Assembly (NCBI GenBank): GCA_009772895.1
Contig: WOUP01000007.1
Coordinates: 1-64,000, forward strand
Source: Puniceicoccaceae bacterium 5H
Lineage (GTDB): Bacteria > Verrucomicrobiota > Verrucomicrobiia > Opitutales > Oceanipulchritudinaceae
Direction of reading: 5' to 3'
Length of the DNA: 64,000 bases
A model generated the notes under the pieces. The model had not been told where the DNA came from and made no database searches. It saw only the letters and a list, made by a program, of their open reading frames with translations. Within the stretch, counting starts at the first letter, position 1. Every line of letters begins with the position of its first letter. The position numbers were made by a program, and so were the translations under genes. Positions 14,960 through 54,062 of the stretch are shown here, piece after piece.

Positions 14960-15035
<76 letters not shown>

Positions 15036-41003: not shown

Positions 41004-41079
41004 GGCTGGGTAGCTCAGTTGGTAGAGCGGAGGACTGAAAATCCTTGTGTCGGCGGTTCGATCCCGCCCCTAGCCACCA
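41004..41079 (+). tRNA. tRNA-Phe (GAA)
   Basis: A complete 76-base tRNA including encoded CCA. Acceptor GGCTGGG pairs with CCTAGCC. Anticodon stem GAGGA with loop CTGAAAA carries GAA. D-loop AGCTCAGTTGGTAGAGC and TTC arm GGCGGTTCGATCCCGCC are canonical. Confidence 0.97.
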
Positions 41080-46985: not shown

Positions 46986-48191
46986 ATGCCGCAACCACGC
47001 CCACCCGTCCGCCTGCGGGTCGTGACGAGCCATCCGATCCAGTATCAGGTGCCGGTTTGGCGTGCCCTGGCCGCGCGGGAGGATGTGAACTTGGAGGTGT
47101 GGTATGCCTCGAGGCAGGGCCTGGAAGCGACGGCGGACGAGGAATTTGGGCTCTCGATCCGCTACGACGTCGACTTGTTGGGCGGCTACCGCGCGCGCTT
47201 TTTCCGCAATTGGGGGCGACGCACAGGCAATGGACCGCTGCGTTACATCAATCCGGGATTGTGGCAGGCGCTGGGGGAGGGTGGTTACGACGTCGCGTTC
47301 TTTCACGGCCTGCACTATGCGACCCACGCTGTGGGCATGCGGGCGGCCCAGCGGGCTGGCGCGGGCGTGATGGTGCGCACGGAGACCTACGATCTCGGCC
47401 AGCCCGAGCGCGGTCTGAAGAGGCGCCTGCGCAATGCCTATTACCGCACGGTGCTGGCGCCGGTGGATCGCGCCTTGACGATCGGCACCGCCAACCGCGC
47501 GTTTTACCAATGCCTCGGGCTCGAGCCTTACCGGCTGGGCTGGGCGCCGTATGTGGTGGACGATGCCTACTTTCGGGCGGCGCGAGAATGGTTGCGCGGA
47601 CAGGAGGCGACGTTGCGCGCGCAATGGCAGTTGCCGCCGGATCGCCCGGTGCTGCTCTTCGCCGGTAAGCTGATTCCCAAAAAGCAGCCGGCGCGGTTGC
47701 TGGAAGCGTTTTTGAGCTCGGCCATGCGCACGCAATGGGCGCTGTTGATCGTGGGCGAGGGCGCGCTGAAGCCGGAGCTGGAGCGCCAGGCGGCGGAAGC
47801 CCCCGATGCGGTGGTGCGGTTTGCGGGCTTTCTCAATCAGAGCCGTATGCCCGAAGCCTACGCCGTGGCGGATGCGCTGGCGCTGCCGAGCGCCTATCAG
47901 GAGACCTGGGGCCTGGTGGTCAACGAAGCCCTGGCGTTTGGCTGCGCGGCGATCGTGAGTGATCGGGTGGGCTCGGCGCCCGATCTGGTGGCGGAGCAGA
48001 CGGGCGAGGTGTTCCCTTACCACGATGTGGATGCGCTGCGGGCGATTCTGGACCGCTGGGTGCAGGAGCCGGAGCGGGTGGCGCAGTATCAGGCGGCGGC
48101 AGCGGCGGCGATCGCGCCCTACACGGTTGAACGGCAGGCGGAAGTCATCGCGCGGGAAGCGCGCTACCTGGCGTGGTCGGCAGGTTGGTAA
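46986..48191 (+). CDS. Glycosyltransferase family 4 (GT-B fold)
   Basis: A 401-residue cytosolic glycosyltransferase. The N-terminal Rossmann half begins VVTSHPIQYQVPVWRAL and has FHGLHYATHAV; the C-terminal half has PVLLFAGKLIPKKQPARLLEA, RFAGFLNQSRMPEAY and the E-x7-E pair Glu306 and Glu314 in QETWGLVVNEALAFG, which positions the sugar nucleotide. It probably builds surface glycan, but donor and acceptor are unknown. Its 3' end overlaps the convergent antiporter gene by 47 bases. Base composition is similar to its neighbours. Confidence 0.9.
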   Translation: MPQPRPPVRLRVVTSHPIQYQVPVWRALAAREDVNLEVWYASRQGLEATADEEFGLSIRYDVDLLGGYRARFFRNWGRRTGNGPLRYINPGLWQALGEGGYDVAFFHGLHYATHAVGMRAAQRAGAGVMVRTETYDLGQPERGLKRRLRNAYYRTVLAPVDRALTIGTANRAFYQCLGLEPYRLGWAPYVVDDAYFRAAREWLRGQEATLRAQWQLPPDRPVLLFAGKLIPKKQPARLLEAFLSSAMRTQWALLIVGEGALKPELERQAAEAPDAVVRFAGFLNQSRMPEAYAVADALALPSAYQETWGLVVNEALAFGCAAIVSDRVGSAPDLVAEQTGEVFPYHDVDALRAILDRWVQEPERVAQYQAAAAAAIAPYTVERQAEVIAREARYLAWSAGW

Positions 48192-49203
48192 AGACCAGCC
48201 ACCCAATGTAGCTGGCATAGATGAGCACCAGCACCAAGCCTTCGCGGCGGTCGACTTTGCCCGCGCTCCAGAGGCCACCGAAGATCAGCAGCGCCACCGT
48301 GAGCCCGAGCATCAGCAGGCCGTCGCGCCAGAAGACCGACCCGTCCACGCGGATGGGCGAGACGACGCCCGCCAGCCCGAGTACGCCCAGCGTGTTGAAG
48401 AGGTTGGAGCCCACGATGTTGCCCACCGCCAGGTCGTGTTGATTCTTGCGTGCGGCGGCGATGGAGGAGGCTAGCTCGGGCAGCGAAGTGCCGATCGCGA
48501 CGATGGTCAGGCCGATGATCAACTCGGAGACGCCCAGCAGCTCGGCGATCTCGACCGCGCCCCAGACGAGCAGGCGGGAGGAGCCGACCAGCAATACGAG
48601 GCCGACAACCGTCCACAGGATCGCCTGGGGCAAGGGGTTCTTCGGCTCCGTTGGGGCGTCGCCGGCGGCCATGGTGTCGCGGGACGATTGGCGGCCCTGC
48701 CAGATGGACCAGCCGACAAGCCCGCCGAATACCGCCAGCAGGCCCACCGCATCGAGGCGCGAGATTTCGCCATCGAAGATCTGGTAGAGGGAAAAGCCGG
48801 TCACGAGCAGGAGGATCGGCAGTTCGCGGCGGATGACTTGCGACTGCACCCGCAGCGGGCTGATCAGCGCGGTCACGGCCAGAATGAAGGCGATGTTGGT
48901 GATGTTGGAGCCGTAGGCATTGCCCAGGGCGAGATCGGGCGTGCCGCTGGCTGCCGCGAGCACGGAGACGATCATCTCGGGCGCGGAGGTGCCGAAGCCG
49001 ATCACGAGCATGCCGATGAGCAGGGGCGGCAGGCCCAGATGGCCGGCCGTATCGGCGGCTCCTTCGACAAAGCGATCGGCGCTCCAGACGAGCAGGATCA
49101 GACCGGCAATCAGGGCGAGCAGTGCGAACATCATGACGTAACAGGCGATGATGGGGTAAAGCGAACGGTCGTCCACTGAAACTGAATTCATTAGGGTTTG
49201 CAC
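48145..49203 (-). CDS. Calcium/sodium antiporter, CaCA (YrbG) family
   Basis: A 352-residue membrane protein with ten or so helices and the two alpha repeats that bind ions: GFGTSAPEMIVSVLAA in the first half and AIGTSLPELASSIAAA in the second, each with a GTS-x-PE. The PE residues are present in both, so it is expected to be active. It extrudes Ca2+ in exchange for Na+. The N-terminus is uncertain; an ATG at 49203 is used but an internal ATG near 49137 would suit the first helix. It overlaps the glycosyltransferase gene tail to tail by 47 bases. Confidence 0.9.
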   Translation of the reverse strand: MQTLMNSVSVDDRSLYPIIACYVMMFALLALIAGLILLVWSADRFVEGAADTAGHLGLPPLLIGMLVIGFGTSAPEMIVSVLAAASGTPDLALGNAYGSNITNIAFILAVTALISPLRVQSQVIRRELPILLLVTGFSLYQIFDGEISRLDAVGLLAVFGGLVGWSIWQGRQSSRDTMAAGDAPTEPKNPLPQAILWTVVGLVLLVGSSRLLVWGAVEIAELLGVSELIIGLTIVAIGTSLPELASSIAAARKNQHDLAVGNIVGSNLFNTLGVLGLAGVVSPIRVDGSVFWRDGLLMLGLTVALLIFGGLWSAGKVDRREGLVLVLIYASYIGWLVFTNLPTTPGSALPAR

Positions 49204-49458
49204 CCCGGTTTACTAAAGAAAGCAGTGTAAAGGCCGCTTAGAACTAGGTTTGAACTGGATTTAATCCGCTGAAGGTGTGCATCATGGAACCCAGCTCAAA
49301 GCTTGAGCGGGCCCATAAAATAGACCTATATACCCGGTGACATCATGGGGATTAGCCGCAACAATCCGTATTTTCTTCACCTGTTACCTACGATGAAGCG
49401 CAGTTTTTGCACCGCCCCGGCATTGCCGCTTCCACGGTTTTCGCCCATAGTCTAGCTT

Positions 49459-50739
49459 ATGCCCAAAGTCCTGGTAGTCGATGATGCGACAGGGGTGCAC
49501 GATATGTTGCGCACCTTGTTTGCGACTATGGACCTGGATGACGCCTATGCGCATAGCGGGGCGGAGGCGTTGAAGATCTATGAAGGCGGCGATATCGATG
49601 TCGTGCTCTCCGACGTCCGCATGGAGCAGATGGACGGGATCGTGTTGCTGCGCCGGCTCAAGAAGATGGACGCGAATGCGGTCGTGATCATGATGACCGC
49701 GCTGGACCGCAAGGACGATATTCTGGCCGCCCTGAAGCTGGGCGCCTTCGATTTCTTCATCAAGCCGTTTCTGGTCAACGAATTCAAGGACAGCCTGCGC
49801 CGCGCGTTCGAGGAGCGCCAGCGCCGGCTCGCTCCCGTGTTGGGCGGCAGTCAGCCGGCGGCGCAGACGACTGGGATGTCGACGCCCGTCGAGGCCGAAA
49901 AGCTGCGCAACCTTCGCCGCAAGCTGGAGGAGCGCGAACAGGCCCTCGCGGCGCGCGAAAACAACTTCCATGAACGCCGCGCCGAGCTGGAAGACCGCGA
50001 GCAGTCACTGGAAGAGCGCCACGAAAAGGTGGCGCGCAAGGAGCGTGAGGTCGAGCAGCGCGAATCCGAGCTTTCCTCCCTCGAGCGCAATCTGACCGAG
50101 CGCGCCCAGTCGACCCCGCCGTGGCAGGGCGAGACTTCGGCCCCGGCGCCCAAAAAGGACGCTTCCAATCAGGTCGTCGTGCTCGAGGCGGAGTTGGAAG
50201 AGCTGAAGGAAGTCCTGGCGGAGCGCGATCGCGAACTGGCCGAGCGTGACCGCCAGCTGGAGAAGCTGCAATCGGCGGCCTTCGGCGAGGGCGATATGCT
50301 CAGCTTTGGCGGCGAACTGGAGGAGGGCGTGGCAAACGGCCCGATCACCGACGAGACGCTGAAGGCTCGCGAGGCGGCTATTCGCGAGCGCGAAGAAATG
50401 TTGGCCGAACGGGAAGCCTTTCTGGAGCAGAGCGAAAATTCCCTCTTCGACAAGGGCCAGGAGCTGCAGGAGCTCGAAGCCGAGCTGGAGCACCGCCGTG
50501 ATCAGGTGGAGGTCCGCGAGCAGATGTTGGGCGAGGGGGGAGAGTCCGTCTCCGCCGAAGATCAGGCCGAAATCCAGCGCATCAAGGCCGAGATCGACGC
50601 CAAGGCACAGGATCTGGCCGAGCGTGAGCAACGCCTGAAGGAGCGGGAGCGCGACATCAAGAAGGCGGAAGCCCTCATCAAGGCGCGCGAGCAATACCTC
50701 AAGGCCAGCGAGAGCATCCTGTTCAACAGCGAAGAATAG
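49459..50739 (+). CDS. Response regulator receiver domain with long coiled coil
   Basis: A 426-residue protein. Residues 1-120 are a CheY-type receiver with Asp8/Asp9, the phospho-acceptor Asp52 in VVLSDVRM, Thr in IMMTALD and Lys in FFIKPF. The rest is a highly charged coiled coil (Arg/Glu/Lys-rich, e.g. EREQALAARENNFHERRAEL) with two short breaks near 215-235 and 275-295; there is no DNA-binding or enzymatic output domain. It precedes rimB and rimK on the same strand. The coiled coil could be a scaffold or dimerisation module. No histidine kinase is next to it. Confidence 0.85.
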   Translation: MPKVLVVDDATGVHDMLRTLFATMDLDDAYAHSGAEALKIYEGGDIDVVLSDVRMEQMDGIVLLRRLKKMDANAVVIMMTALDRKDDILAALKLGAFDFFIKPFLVNEFKDSLRRAFEERQRRLAPVLGGSQPAAQTTGMSTPVEAEKLRNLRRKLEEREQALAARENNFHERRAELEDREQSLEERHEKVARKEREVEQRESELSSLERNLTERAQSTPPWQGETSAPAPKKDASNQVVVLEAELEELKEVLAERDRELAERDRQLEKLQSAAFGEGDMLSFGGELEEGVANGPITDETLKAREAAIREREEMLAEREAFLEQSENSLFDKGQELQELEAELEHRRDQVEVREQMLGEGGESVSAEDQAEIQRIKAEIDAKAQDLAEREQRLKERERDIKKAEALIKAREQYLKASESILFNSEE

Positions 50740-50808
50740 GTTGGGGCGAATGCCATCAACCCCGTGCGCGTCCTTGCCTTCTGTCTGGAATCCCCCATGT
50801 TGTGGGCC

Positions 50809-51264
50809 ATGAGCGGGCCCGTTATCATCGGCTGGAAGGAGATCATCCATTTACCGGAGTGGGACATCGGCGGCTTGTCTGCCAAGTCCGATACGGGAGC
50901 CCGCAGCTGCGCGATCGACGTGAGCAAGATCACCGAACTACCGGACGGGCGGGTTTCGTTCGAAGTCATCCTCGACCGGGGTGCTGCGACGCGGACTCGC
51001 CGGGTCGAGGCTGCGGTGGTGGGGCGCACGGTCGTCCGCTCGAGCAATGGCCGCAGCCAGCTGCGTTACCGCGTGCGCACCGAGGTCAGGATCGGGCCGC
51101 ATTCCAAGCTGGCAGACTTCACGCTCGTGAACCGGCGGCGCATGATTCACCGCGTTTTGCTCGGCCGCATCTTCATGGCCGGCGATTTTCTCGTTGATTC
51201 CTCTCAGGTCTACGTGCATGGAGGCAAACCAGCACGTCGCTCCGCCAGAATCCAAAAAAGCTGA
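50809..51264 (+). CDS. rimB: RimB-type retropepsin-like protease
   Basis: About 151 residues from the ATG at 50809 (an ATG at 50797 is also possible). The Zn_protease/RimB family motif is present: GWKEIIHLPEWDIGGLSAKS followed by Asp28-Thr-Gly-Ala (DTGARSCAID), the aspartic-protease DTG signature, and RRMIHRVLLGRIFMAGDFLVD near the end. RimB proteins are small retropepsin-like proteases encoded with RimK; in other bacteria they remove the glutamate tail that RimK adds to ribosomal protein S6. rimK follows 6 bases after its stop. Confidence 0.85.
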   Translation: MSGPVIIGWKEIIHLPEWDIGGLSAKSDTGARSCAIDVSKITELPDGRVSFEVILDRGAATRTRRVEAAVVGRTVVRSSNGRSQLRYRVRTEVRIGPHSKLADFTLVNRRRMIHRVLLGRIFMAGDFLVDSSQVYVHGGKPARRSARIQKS

Positions 51265-51270
51265 AATGCT

Positions 51271-52515
51271 ATGACGGCCTCCTCCTCTCTCAACCTGGCC
51301 ATATTATCGCGCAGCCCCAAGGCTTACAGCACCCGTCGGCTGCGTGAAAGTGCCCTTGCCCGCGGCCTGCGGTGCCGTGTGATGGATACGCTGAGGTTCG
51401 GCATCTATGTCGAGCGCACTCAGCCCGCGCTCACCTACAAGGGCGAACCCCTGGACGACTACGATGCGATCATTCCCCGCATCGGGGCGTCGATCAGCTT
51501 CTATGGCGCTGCAGTGGTGCGGCAGTTCGAGCAAATGGGCGTCTTTAGCGTCAACTCCGCAGTGGCCATCACCACGGCGCGGGACAAGTTGCGCTCGCTG
51601 CAGGTGCTCAGCCGCCACGACATCGGCATCGCGCACAGTGCGTTTGTGCGGCAAAAGAGTGACGTGTTGCCGGCGATCCAGAAGGTCGGCGGCGCGCCCG
51701 TCATCGTAAAACTGCTCGAGGGCACGCAGGGCATCGGCGTGATCCTGGCCGAAAGCGAAAAGGTGGCTGAGGCCATCGTGGAGACGTTGCAGGCCAAGGA
51801 CATGAACGTGCTGATCCAGAAGTTTGTGCAAGAGAGCAAGGGCCGCGACATCCGGGCCTTCGTGATCGGCGACCGCGTGGTGGCCGCGATGCGCCGGCGT
51901 GCGGTGGGCGGCGAATTTCGCAGCAACGTGCACCGGGGCGGCCGTACCGAACGTGTGCAGTTGAGCGAAGACTACGAGCGCACGGCGGTGCGGGCGGCCC
52001 AGATCATGGGTTTGCGAGTGGCCGGCGTCGACATGCTCGAGGGCAACGACGGCCCCGTCATCATGGAGGTCAACGCCTCCCCGGGTCTCGAGGGCATCGA
52101 GACCTGCACCCAGATCGATATCGCGGGCGAGATCGTGGACTACGTGGTGGAGCACGCCCGCTTCGACGATCTGGATGTGCGCCAGCGGCTGGCGTTTGCC
52201 CGCGGTTATATCGTGGCTGAATTTACGGTGACGGAGACCTGGCCGCTGGCCAACAAGACCTTGGCCGAATCCGGCTTGCGGGAGCGCGACATCGTGGTGA
52301 TGAGCATCAACCGCGGGGGTCAGCACTATCCCGTGCCGCGTGGCTCGGATGTGCTGTACGCGGGCGACGTGCTGCTGTGCTATGGCCCGAAGCTGGCGCT
52401 GCGCGAATACTTGCCCACGCTCGAGAAAAAGCGCAAGAAACGCAACGGCTCACGGCTCAAAAGCCCGGAGCCAAGCGAAAACCCGCCGCCGACCGACCCG
52501 GATCCGACGGCCTGA
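51271..52515 (+). CDS. rimK: RimK-type glutamate ligase fused to an RCK_C (TrkA_C) domain
   Basis: A 414-residue protein, longer than E. coli RimK (about 300). Residues 1-300 form the ATP-grasp ligase (AILSRSPKAYSTRRLRESA, GAPVIVKLLEGTQGIGVILA, IQKFVQESKGRDIRAFVIG, GPVIMEVNASPGLEGIE), which adds glutamates to the S6 C-terminus. Residues about 312-388 form a second domain (EFTVTETWPLANKTLAESGL, IVVMSINRGGQHYPVPRGSD, VLYAGDVLLCYGP), a TrkA_C/RCK_C fold that in K+ transporters binds small ligands, including c-di-AMP in some. A Pro-rich tail follows. It is co-transcribed with rimB. Confidence 0.9.
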   Translation: MTASSSLNLAILSRSPKAYSTRRLRESALARGLRCRVMDTLRFGIYVERTQPALTYKGEPLDDYDAIIPRIGASISFYGAAVVRQFEQMGVFSVNSAVAITTARDKLRSLQVLSRHDIGIAHSAFVRQKSDVLPAIQKVGGAPVIVKLLEGTQGIGVILAESEKVAEAIVETLQAKDMNVLIQKFVQESKGRDIRAFVIGDRVVAAMRRRAVGGEFRSNVHRGGRTERVQLSEDYERTAVRAAQIMGLRVAGVDMLEGNDGPVIMEVNASPGLEGIETCTQIDIAGEIVDYVVEHARFDDLDVRQRLAFARGYIVAEFTVTETWPLANKTLAESGLRERDIVVMSINRGGQHYPVPRGSDVLYAGDVLLCYGPKLALREYLPTLEKKRKKRNGSRLKSPEPSENPPPTDPDPTA

Positions 52516-52604
52516 GGAACGAGAGTTTGGGGGCGTGGAAGGTGGTAAACACGAACCACGCCGCTGGCACCGCTCCTTGCCGCAAGGTGCGTTCAAGCCG
52601 CCCG

Positions 52605-53084
52605 TTAGCGCGGGGGCAGCAAATCAAAGTCGGACAAGACGCCGCGGATCGTCTCGGCGTTGATCGGCTTGTCGTAGTAGGCGGTCATGCCGGCTGCGGC
52701 ATAGCCATTCGCATCGCCCATGCGCGCAAAGGCAGAAAGGCCGATGATCGGGACCCCGCTGTTGTGCAGACCCACTTCGCCAGAACGGATACGGCGTGTG
52801 GCTTCCACTCCGTCCAGTTCCGGCATCTGGATATCCATGAAGATGAGATCGGCCTGCTGGTTCTGGAGAGCCTGCAAGAGATGGGCGCCGTTGTTGCACA
52901 TCTGGCAGGCCAGGCCAAGTCGCTTGAGGATGGCCCCCAGCACCCGCTGGTTGATGCTGTTGTCTTCCGCGTAAAAGAGCCGGAAACTCGGCGTTTTGGG
53001 CGCGAGTTGACCACTCGGGGCAGGTTCGCCGAACTCGAGTCGGCGGACGGGCGGTTGAGAAGTGGCTGTCACGGACAAAGTCAT
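52605..53084 (-). CDS. Single-domain response regulator
   Basis: 159 residues from the ATG at 53084. After a flexible N-terminal 35 residues, a receiver domain: YAEDNSINQRVLGAIL, acceptor Asp in LIFMDIQMPELDG, Ser/Ala switch in IIGLSAFAR and Lys in YYDKPIN. No output domain. Such CheY/HK-hybrid-like receivers relay phosphoryl groups or act through protein contact. It faces rimK tail to tail and its cognate kinase is not in the window. Confidence 0.85.
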   Translation of the reverse strand: MTLSVTATSQPPVRRLEFGEPAPSGQLAPKTPSFRLFYAEDNSINQRVLGAILKRLGLACQMCNNGAHLLQALQNQQADLIFMDIQMPELDGVEATRRIRSGEVGLHNSGVPIIGLSAFARMGDANGYAAAGMTAYYDKPINAETIRGVLSDFDLLPPR

Positions 53085-53201
53085 TGAAGGCGGTGGACTG
53101 AGCTGAAGTAAGCGGTGCCTCTTATTTCGGAGCTTTAGGTGATCTTTGAAGGTCAAACACCTATTTAGCTACAAATAGTAAATTCAGAGATGAGCGATAC
53201 T

Positions 53202-54062
53202 TTACTGATCGGTGGTGAAGGGAGGGTGTTCGCGCAGGGTGTCTCCGCTGCGGGGCGCATCTGCGGGGATGGCGGCGATACGGGGCAGGCAGCGCAGCAT
53301 GATCTCGGTGCAGATGGGGTTCAAGCGGCGGTAAACCTGCCGGATGGTATCCCAGGTCCAGTCGCCCACGCCCTCGGCCGGATTGCTGATCACGTTGAGA
53401 CAGGCCAGGTGGAGGCCCAATTGCCGGGCGTAGGTGATCTCGGTGGCGACGTTGAGTGTGACGAGATCGGCCCCCTGCTGGCGCAGTGCCCGGATCTCCG
53501 AAGCTGTTTCGAAACGGCCGCCGCGTGCCTGCCAGACGCTGCCGACCGGGTGAATGCTGATGTCGTCCAACTCCCGCCGGGCACGCACGGTCTTGCGCGC
53601 CTCCTCGATCAGAATCTGGCGCAGCGTCGCATCCATCGGTGGCGTGAAGCGAGGGAAGGCAAAGGTGGGCCCCTCCAGGTATTGCAGTGGGATGCCGGTG
53701 GGGCGGTCGATGTTGAGGTCGCCGAAATCGTCGGGCACCACGAGGTCGAACAGGCGATAGGCCGGGTGAATGCCGCCCGCCGTGGCGCCGGTCAGGACGT
53801 TGCGCACGCCCAGTTGGTGCAGGCCCAGCCACGTCTGCAGCCACTGGTTGTCGCCGTGGAAGTGCACGTAGATGTAAGGCACCTCCTCATACTGGCCGAG
53901 GTAGAAGGGCGGTGATGTGCCTTCGGGCGTTTCGACCGTAAAGCGGCCCTCCAATCCTCCGTCACGCTCGATGGCGTCGTTGAGATGCGTGCCCCCGATG
54001 AGTGCGATGCACACCTTGTCGGGCGCTTCGATGAGCGGAAGCTGGTCCAGGTGGGTGGCCAT
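53202..54062 (-). CDS. MTAP/PNP-family nucleoside phosphorylase
   Basis: A 286-residue phosphorylase. It cleaves purine nucleosides (5'-methylthioadenosine or inosine-type) with phosphate. Recognisable parts are the start IALIGGTHLND (phosphate loop), GVRNVLTGATAGGIHPAYR, DLVVPDDFGD, and ARGGRFETASEIRALRQQG followed by TLNVATEITYARQLG. The normal GMT/GMS after the substrate loop is LNV, so the exact substrate is uncertain; MTAP length is similar. No methionine salvage gene is beside it. Confidence 0.78.
   Translation of the reverse strand: MATHLDQLPLIEAPDKVCIALIGGTHLNDAIERDGGLEGRFTVETPEGTSPPFYLGQYEEVPYIYVHFHGDNQWLQTWLGLHQLGVRNVLTGATAGGIHPAYRLFDLVVPDDFGDLNIDRPTGIPLQYLEGPTFAFPRFTPPMDATLRQILIEEARKTVRARRELDDISIHPVGSVWQARGGRFETASEIRALRQQGADLVTLNVATEITYARQLGLHLACLNVISNPAEGVGDWTWDTIRQVYRRLNPICTEIMLRCLPRIAAIPADAPRSGDTLREHPPFTTDQ

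Follow-up and report, generated by a model that had tools for sequence, protein, structure and literature searches.

A RimK-family glutamate ligase with a fused RCK_C domain, the genes that accompany it, and a possible link to ion and osmotic state

RimK is best known for modifying ribosomes. In Pseudomonas it is encoded with the retropepsin RimB in rimBK and rimABK operons. Here we describe a rimK gene on a 64,000-nucleotide stretch of DNA from Puniceicoccaceae bacterium 5H (contig WOUP01000007.1, positions 1 to 64,000; hereafter the window). Its product shares the core, the fold and the poly-glutamate (poly-Glu) contacts of Pseudomonas RimK, and the gene likewise adjoins a RimB with a DTGA motif. 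The locus differs from the Pseudomonas rim operons in that the ligase carries a fused RCK_C domain, no RimA is encoded among the neighbours scanned, and ribosomal protein S6 is without an acidic, Glu-ended tail. Most relatives of the window, again in difference to the Pseudomonas operons, include an AstE gene.

The RimBK hybrid of Desulfotalea and other bacteria is likewise a fusion within the rim system, and no glutamylation of Pseudomonas S6 by the hybrid was seen in the study that describes it (PMC11957791). The hybrid has RimB joined N-terminally to RimK, whereas the window protein bears RCK_C at its C-terminal end and RimB is encoded separately. The rlo operon (RloABC) of P. aeruginosa encodes a RimB-like retropepsin and a RimK-like ATP-grasp protein, and its mutants are tied to hypoosmotic stress (PMC12239564). 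In contrast to the window, RloA is secreted and accompanied by a transglutaminase-like membrane protein; the RimB of the window reaches none of the three Rlo cut-offs. The RCK_C domains of KtrA, KtrC, KhtT and BusR have the same fold as the C-terminal segment of the window protein (Z scores of 9.8 to 12.4). They sit on a channel, a transporter or a DNA-binding domain, whereas the RCK_C of the window sits on a glutamate ligase. KtrA, KtrC and KhtT are named among the RCK_C users regulated by cyclic di-AMP (c-di-AMP) (PMC8517857). No publication on a RimK-RCK_C fusion was found in the open-licence literature of PMC, and domain-architecture databases may well list the fusion.

A sequence-only reading of the window had described a fusion of RimK and RCK_C adjoining RimB and a receiver/coiled-coil gene; the open reading frames (ORFs) proved real, on the forward strand and in agreement with their Pfam domains (Table 1). 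The C-terminal domain is a true RCK_C, far above chance. TrkA_C was matched independently by all 43 aligned C-terminal segments of fused proteins, the one of the window included. The fold check that had been suggested for this segment bore the assignment out: an AlphaFold model of the segment alone, computed with the 43-segment alignment, reached a mean predicted local distance difference test score (pLDDT) of 84.2 and matched KhtT with c-di-AMP best (7ahm, Z 12.4, root mean square deviation (rmsd) 2.4, 83 aligned residues), followed by PH0236 (Z 12.1), the KtrA RCK_C with c-di-AMP (4xtt, Z 11.4, rmsd 2.7, 81 aligned) and MthK (Z 11.2), where matches within 1 Z unit of one another count as ties. 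A profile of the domain searched against the PDB gave KhtT (1.4e-6), KtrA (1.9e-6) and KtrC (3.6e-6) on top, then PH0236 (2.6e-5), another KtrA (7e-5), GsuK (1.6e-4) and MthK (5e-4), and BusR at 7e-3. The model of the full-length protein, with a mean pLDDT of 68.8, is too weak for the domain arrangement to be read from it. With an RCK_C fold present, direct control of RimK by a ligand is plausible, as the sequence-only reading had suggested; the process it had named as gated, ribosome modification, was not supported (see below).

The ligase itself looks intact, judging by sequence and fold comparison. It passes the curated cut-off for TIGR00768, the RimK family alpha-L-glutamate ligase (252.8 bits against 143.4). 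Its core is 47% identical to E. coli RimK and comes nearest to Pseudomonas RimK, both in sequence (7qyr, 1.7e-100) and in fold (7qys, template modelling (TM) score 0.87 on the target). In Pseudomonas RimK the poly-Glu chain is contacted by S7, R8, S14, R64, S68, R189 and N262 (PMC10092738), and the window protein keeps all seven, as S13, R14, S20, R70, S74, R195 and N268. Among 23 fused proteins S14, R64, S68, R189 and N262 are invariant, and S7 is kept in 21.

To define the distribution of the fusion, the class of the window was surveyed, in which 46 of 188 genomes match the full protein at 1e-3, mostly weakly and through other ATP-grasp or RCK_C proteins. The full-length fused protein is found in eight of the 188, and five strong unfused matches occur in five genomes, including G185, where the fused form is present as well. 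When 84,980 species genomes were scanned with a single narrow back-translated motif of the RCK_C segment, 39 stretches and 23 confirmed loci were obtained, and at all 23 the RimK core and RCK_C lie in one ORF. By title, 14 are Verrucomicrobiota, the phylum in which the sequence-only reading had asked for the same fusion to be sought; five are Planctomycetota, one is a myxococcote, two are metagenome-assembled genomes (MAGs) labelled Actinomycetota and one is an unclassified bacterium, whereby six of the 23 duplicate genomes of the class survey and MAG labels may be wrong. Because the motif is narrow, the count is a lower bound. In Planctomycetota, 154 of 392 genomes match at 1e-30. Among the matches listed, 71 in 69 genomes reach through RCK_C (query end at least 374, at least 479 bits), 79 stop at or before residue 307 (at most 420 bits), and fused and unfused RimK occur together in 29 genomes (e.g., G502, G588 and G358). 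The planctomycete G502, a bearer of the RCK_C fusion, also encodes a RimB-RimK hybrid in one ORF (L160:4217-5620), with RimB at residues 4-146, RimK at 165-457 and DSGA for DTGA. Plasmid records of Pseudomonadota and other bacteria did not yield the fused form: none of 92 matching records covers 80% of the query, and the 15 matches listed end at residue 306 or earlier.

When 45 fused and 26 unfused cores were placed in one tree, the fused proteins fell on one side of a single branch (support 99/97), and the fused state requires one change compared to 21.4 in shuffles. This tree has no root, and long end branches carry seven of the unfused rows, E. coli included. The single supported branch, together with the spread over several phyla, means that the fusion is best seen, as far as these alignments tell, as one old subfamily that is widespread across phyla.

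The genes around rimK were compared at 44 distinct fused and 25 unfused loci, after six duplicate loci had been dropped. RimB and an AstE-like gene (PF24827, an identity verified for a few of these genes) are both present in the stretch retrieved around rimK at 30 fused loci, AstE only at four, RimB only at three and neither at seven. The corresponding numbers for the unfused loci are six, four, six and nine. Gene order and strand vary somewhat, and some stretches stop at contig edges. DTGA is found in 32 of 33 RimBs of fused loci, the exception being L057, where RimB lies on the opposite strand. HGDE, which we take to be the start of the AstE zinc site, is found in 34 of 34 AstEs of fused loci. 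The RimB family cuts poly-Glu (PMC11957791), and the AstE-like hydrolase is probably exo-acting. As RimB and AstE are present at most fused loci, a ligase, a poly-Glu endopeptidase and a probable exo-acting hydrolase appear to travel together. A possible fourth member of the cassette is an M42 glutamyl aminopeptidase, whose gene is found just ahead of RimB, and on its strand, in a single clade (L033:6121-7239 (-), L034:6629-7750 (-) and L056:1-744 (+)). The AstE-like gene could not be noticed in the sequence-only reading since the window has none, though most relatives do. In the window, a response-regulator gene (52605-53156, -), convergent with rimK, lies directly downstream, at the position of AstE in most relatives. 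Elsewhere in the window genome the sole AstE candidate was a 23-bit, 35% match over ~100 residues in an ORF of 272 residues, which was rejected.

Table 1 Features of the rimK locus and their positions in the window
Feature	Position	Strand	Basis
RimK-RCK_C fusion, 414 aa	51271-52515	+	ORF and Pfam scan
RimK pre-ATP-grasp domain (Rimk_N), residues 7-100	51289-51570	+	Pfam PF18030, 2.8e-35
RimK ATP-grasp domain, residues 103-292	51577-52146	+	Pfam PF08443, 5.1e-60
RCK_C/TrkA_C domain, residues 315-376	52213-52398	+	PF02080, E=5e-14, 52.4 bits vs cut-off 27
C-terminal tail, residues 387-414, basic then Pro-rich, poorly conserved, low model confidence	52429-52512	+	
RimB-like retropepsin	50764-51264	+	PF05618, E=1.4e-18, motif AKSDTGARSCAID
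Receiver and long coiled-coil-like region	49459-50739	+	PF00072 Response_reg residues 4-112, E=1.3e-23
Na+/Ca2+ exchanger family gene, divergent, upstream; context only	48145-49203	-	PF01699, 1e-68

The RimB of the window shows both the PF05618 domain and the DTG(A) active site, the latter within AKSDTGARS. Its score of 86 bits is under the 200-bit cut-off of the RimB equivalog NF052261, and an ATG near 50812 is a possible start instead of the annotated GTG. It is separated from the receiver gene by 24 bases and from rimK by six. The long region of the receiver gene that follows the receiver consists to one half of E, D, K, R and Q and was judged by eye to be coiled-coil-like. The sequence-only reading had proposed receiver input, together with the fused module, in place of RimA. 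As a general part of the system this is not supported: a homologous gene was detected at three of 75 rimK loci only (L031 and L048 of one genome, and L047), in two close relatives, while G155, the third family member, showed none, so that it was dropped as a conserved part of the cassette and is regarded as a family-level addition. No EAL protein (RimA) is encoded by the six genes scanned in and around the cassette (48145-54062).

We tentatively favor the idea that RimK-RCK_C is a poly-alpha-L-glutamate ligase regulated in cis and belonging to an ion/osmotic module. The fused RCK_C would set the activity or the assembly of the ligase in cis. It would pair with the RCK_C of a second subunit, and a small ligand may bind in the cleft of this dimer. 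Ligand binding would make glutamate ligation respond to ionic or osmotic conditions in the cell, where we infer the direction of control, like ligase activity and the osmotic role themselves. Together with RimB as poly-Glu-cutting retropepsin and, in most relatives, the AstE-like zinc hydrolase, RimK-RCK_C would run a make-and-trim cycle of alpha-linked glutamate chains, the product of which could be free poly-glutamate or a tail on a protein other than S6.

The ionic part of this proposal comes from the gene neighbourhoods. Eight plasmid records with unfused RimK were opened first. Plasmids of Salinivibrio kushneri and S. proteolyticus (L167, L171) carry, in this order, MscS, a magnesium transporter on the other strand, RimB, RimK and AstE. 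On a Vibrio nigripulchritudo plasmid (L168) RimK, AstE, RimB and MscS are followed by USP on the other strand. In the V. europaeus plasmid pVeu-CECT8426 (L172, 3269-10891), RimK, AstE, RimB, MgtE, CorA, MscS and USP follow one another and share a strand, and a diguanylate cyclase gene directly precedes the cassette. A Pfam scan of 288 flanking ORFs from Verrucomicrobiota, Planctomycetota and other loci identified MscS_TM in four and CorA in five. In 64 rimK genomes, 36 copies of MscS_TM and 68 of CorA were positioned, with rimK mapped in 50 of the 64. Nine of 52 mapped CorA copies lie within 10 kb of rimK (0.27 expected) and six within 5 kb (0.14 expected). For MscS_TM, five of 33 mapped copies lie within 10 kb (0.16 expected) and four within 5 kb (0.09 expected). 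Grouping the near kin by judgement leaves six CorA groups, with P ~4e-7 compared to the ungrouped expectation. In a control with the sodium/solute symporter (SSF), one of the 150 copies listed (of 246) lies near rimK versus 0.71 expected. The fused loci among these are G198, G401 and G488 for MscS_TM and G174, G488, G502, G272 and G588 for CorA within 10 kb; the rest are unfused. In a separate data set, K05844, a mechanosensitive channel and a system for magnesium uptake are correlated with habitat and occur more often in brackish relatives than in marine ones, and K05844 is discussed there alongside the literature on RimK and poly-Glu (PMC10219603). MscS_TM was also found within 5 kb of CorA in seven of 36 copies, mostly away from mapped rimK (e.g., G358:C1:3774519-3777970), as a CorA-MscK-like pair.

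Several observations weigh against a cis-regulated ligase of an ion/osmotic module. RCK_C domains can serve dimerisation alone. Clustering with CorA and MscS is common to fused and unfused RimK, and thus speaks for the cassette and not for RCK_C. The ion/osmotic idea was drawn from the Vibrionaceae among the records opened first; three of these eight records (Leisingera, Acaryochloris and Allocoleopsis) have no mechanosensitive channel, and one is unannotated. The loci with CorA or MscS near rimK are partly close kin, and the expectation given above ignores contig edges. In the window itself neither a CorA or MscS_TM gene near rimK nor an AstE gene beside it is present, and the window genome gave no MscS_TM match at 1e-10. 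Among the poly-Glu contacts, R8 is kept in 14 of the 23 fused proteins and varies in nine. The authors of the brackish-marine comparison take the association with rimK to reflect a tuning of protein charge (PMC10219603), and in P. aeruginosa deletion of rimB is reported to show no interaction with the osmotic phenotype that rlo mutants have (PMC12239564).

A more specific version, in which RimK-RCK_C acts as a K+/osmotic switch, appears doubtful to us. Here, c-di-AMP, K+ or another nucleotide bound to the RCK_C dimer would toggle poly-alpha-glutamate synthesis, and free glutamate, the main counter-ion of K+, would be packed and released by RimK, RimB and AstE beside MscS-type channels and CorA, without involvement of the ribosome. 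The conservation of RCK_C bears on the ligand. In the 43 aligned segments, G335, L336, R337, E/D338 and D340 are each kept in 40, P356, D366 and G372 in all 43 and C370 in 42. The LDIR/LDVR motif of KtrA, KtrC and KhtT aligns with SGLR in the window, where the next loop is one residue shorter, and the Asp of this motif is replaced by Gly in 40 of the 43 family members. Contact roles were carried from BusR to the RimK family via KtrA numbering, a transfer that we presume to hold. In BusR, the ribose is contacted by residue 157, at the start of the cleft segment, and the phosphate by His160 (PMC8517857). The Arg and the Pro of the cleft are retained in RimK-RCK_C, but Gly takes the place of the Asp, and an acidic residue that of the BusR His. 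By alignment, the cleft segment of RCK_C is conserved but differs from the standard c-di-AMP cleft, and c-di-AMP is a possible ligand that would have lost one contact residue.

A DAC gene is present in the window genome and in 27 of 27 rimK genomes tested. It is likewise present in 361 of 392 Planctomycetota genomes, and since DAC is so common in these phyla its presence tells little about the ligand. A test for co-occurrence in this set (68 of 69 fused versus 293 of 323 other genomes, p=0.026) is confounded by genome completeness and was not used; fused and DAC status had been assigned by hand from match listings, and fused status was recounted. The sole DAC-domain protein found in the window genome has the arrangement PTS_EIIA_2, DacZ_P, DAC (L044:541-1920). 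It reads GSRHSAA where CdaA has RHR, and ORFs alike in length and motif occur in relatives of the same order.

The domain might instead bind nothing and act as a passive module for dimerisation, through which the RimK oligomer is stabilised or RimB is held. Loss of the Asp from the LDIR/LDVR motif of c-di-AMP binders fits such a role, as does the activity of RimK without RCK_C in other bacteria (PMC11957791). On the other hand, the conserved G335, L336, R337, E/D338, D340 and P356 would map to the ligand-cleft segment of KtrA and BusR, and conservation at these positions seemingly exceeds what dimerisation alone needs. We consider a purely passive module unlikely.

The sequence-only reading had taken the ribosome as the target, with RimK-RCK_C glutamylating S6 and RCK_C gating ribosome modification by a ligand. 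RimK and RimB do act on S6 in Pseudomonas (PMC11957791), RimB adjoins rimK in the window, and the ligase core shares the identity with E. coli RimK given above. Its score against PRK10446, the equivalog of S6--L-glutamate ligase, is a near miss slightly below the cut-off (327.8 versus 331). The S6 of the window genome is encoded by a 99-residue ORF ending ...KRVMVQSL, with three residues past the domain and Leu as the last one, compared to the long acidic tail ...DDAEAGDSEE of the E. coli control. S6 was found in 26 of 27 other rimK genomes searched, which together with the window genome gives 23 S6 proteins from fusion genomes. Two of these 23 end in Glu; both belong to Phycisphaerae and have acidic tails, and two more fusion genomes (Polyangiaceae and Phycisphaerales) have acidic tails ending in Ala. 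In Verrucomicrobiota, the window included, none of 15 S6 proteins from fusion genomes ends in Glu and none extends more than nine residues past the Pfam match. A Glu-ended S6 was found in none of four genomes with only unfused RimK found. Some S6 proteins are not Glu-ended, and RimK may have other functions (PMC11957791). Because the S6 of this organism is without an acidic Glu-ended tail, its glutamylation here is unlikely, and the reading in which RCK_C gates ribosome modification through S6 seems improbable to us.

Least probable of all is that the fused ligase adds its glutamates to a coenzyme or another small molecule, in the manner of the RimK relatives that modify methanogen cofactors and methylofuran: RimK homologues of M. 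jannaschii act in coenzyme synthesis (PMC11957791) and poly-Glu ligases for methylofuran exist, but the adjoining RimB comes from a family with demonstrated cleavage of protein-bound poly-Glu (PMC11957791), the cofactor ligase models score far below their cut-offs (MptN 175.6 versus 350, CofF 83.6 versus 300), and the 25 most common flanking families listed per scan did not point to any cofactor pathway.

An old branch of RimK that spans several phyla, carries a sensor domain of the K+-transporter type, resides mostly in genomes with a tail-less S6 and is part of a cassette found in neighbourhoods with osmotic channels points toward a second role of poly-alpha-glutamate, in the balance of ions and turgor. 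RimK-RCK_C would offer a testable link between the sensing of a cyclic nucleotide or ion and the glutamate pool, and might explain the association of rimK with salinity transitions (PMC10219603).

Further elements of the window were considered as well. The divergent Na+/Ca2+ exchanger gene was rejected as a recurring neighbour, as no match was found beside 69 other rimK loci. A search for a c-di-AMP riboswitch or another known RNA element with Rfam at the gathering score returned, as sole matches in the window, two tRNA genes at 14963-15035 (-) and 41004-41076 (+).

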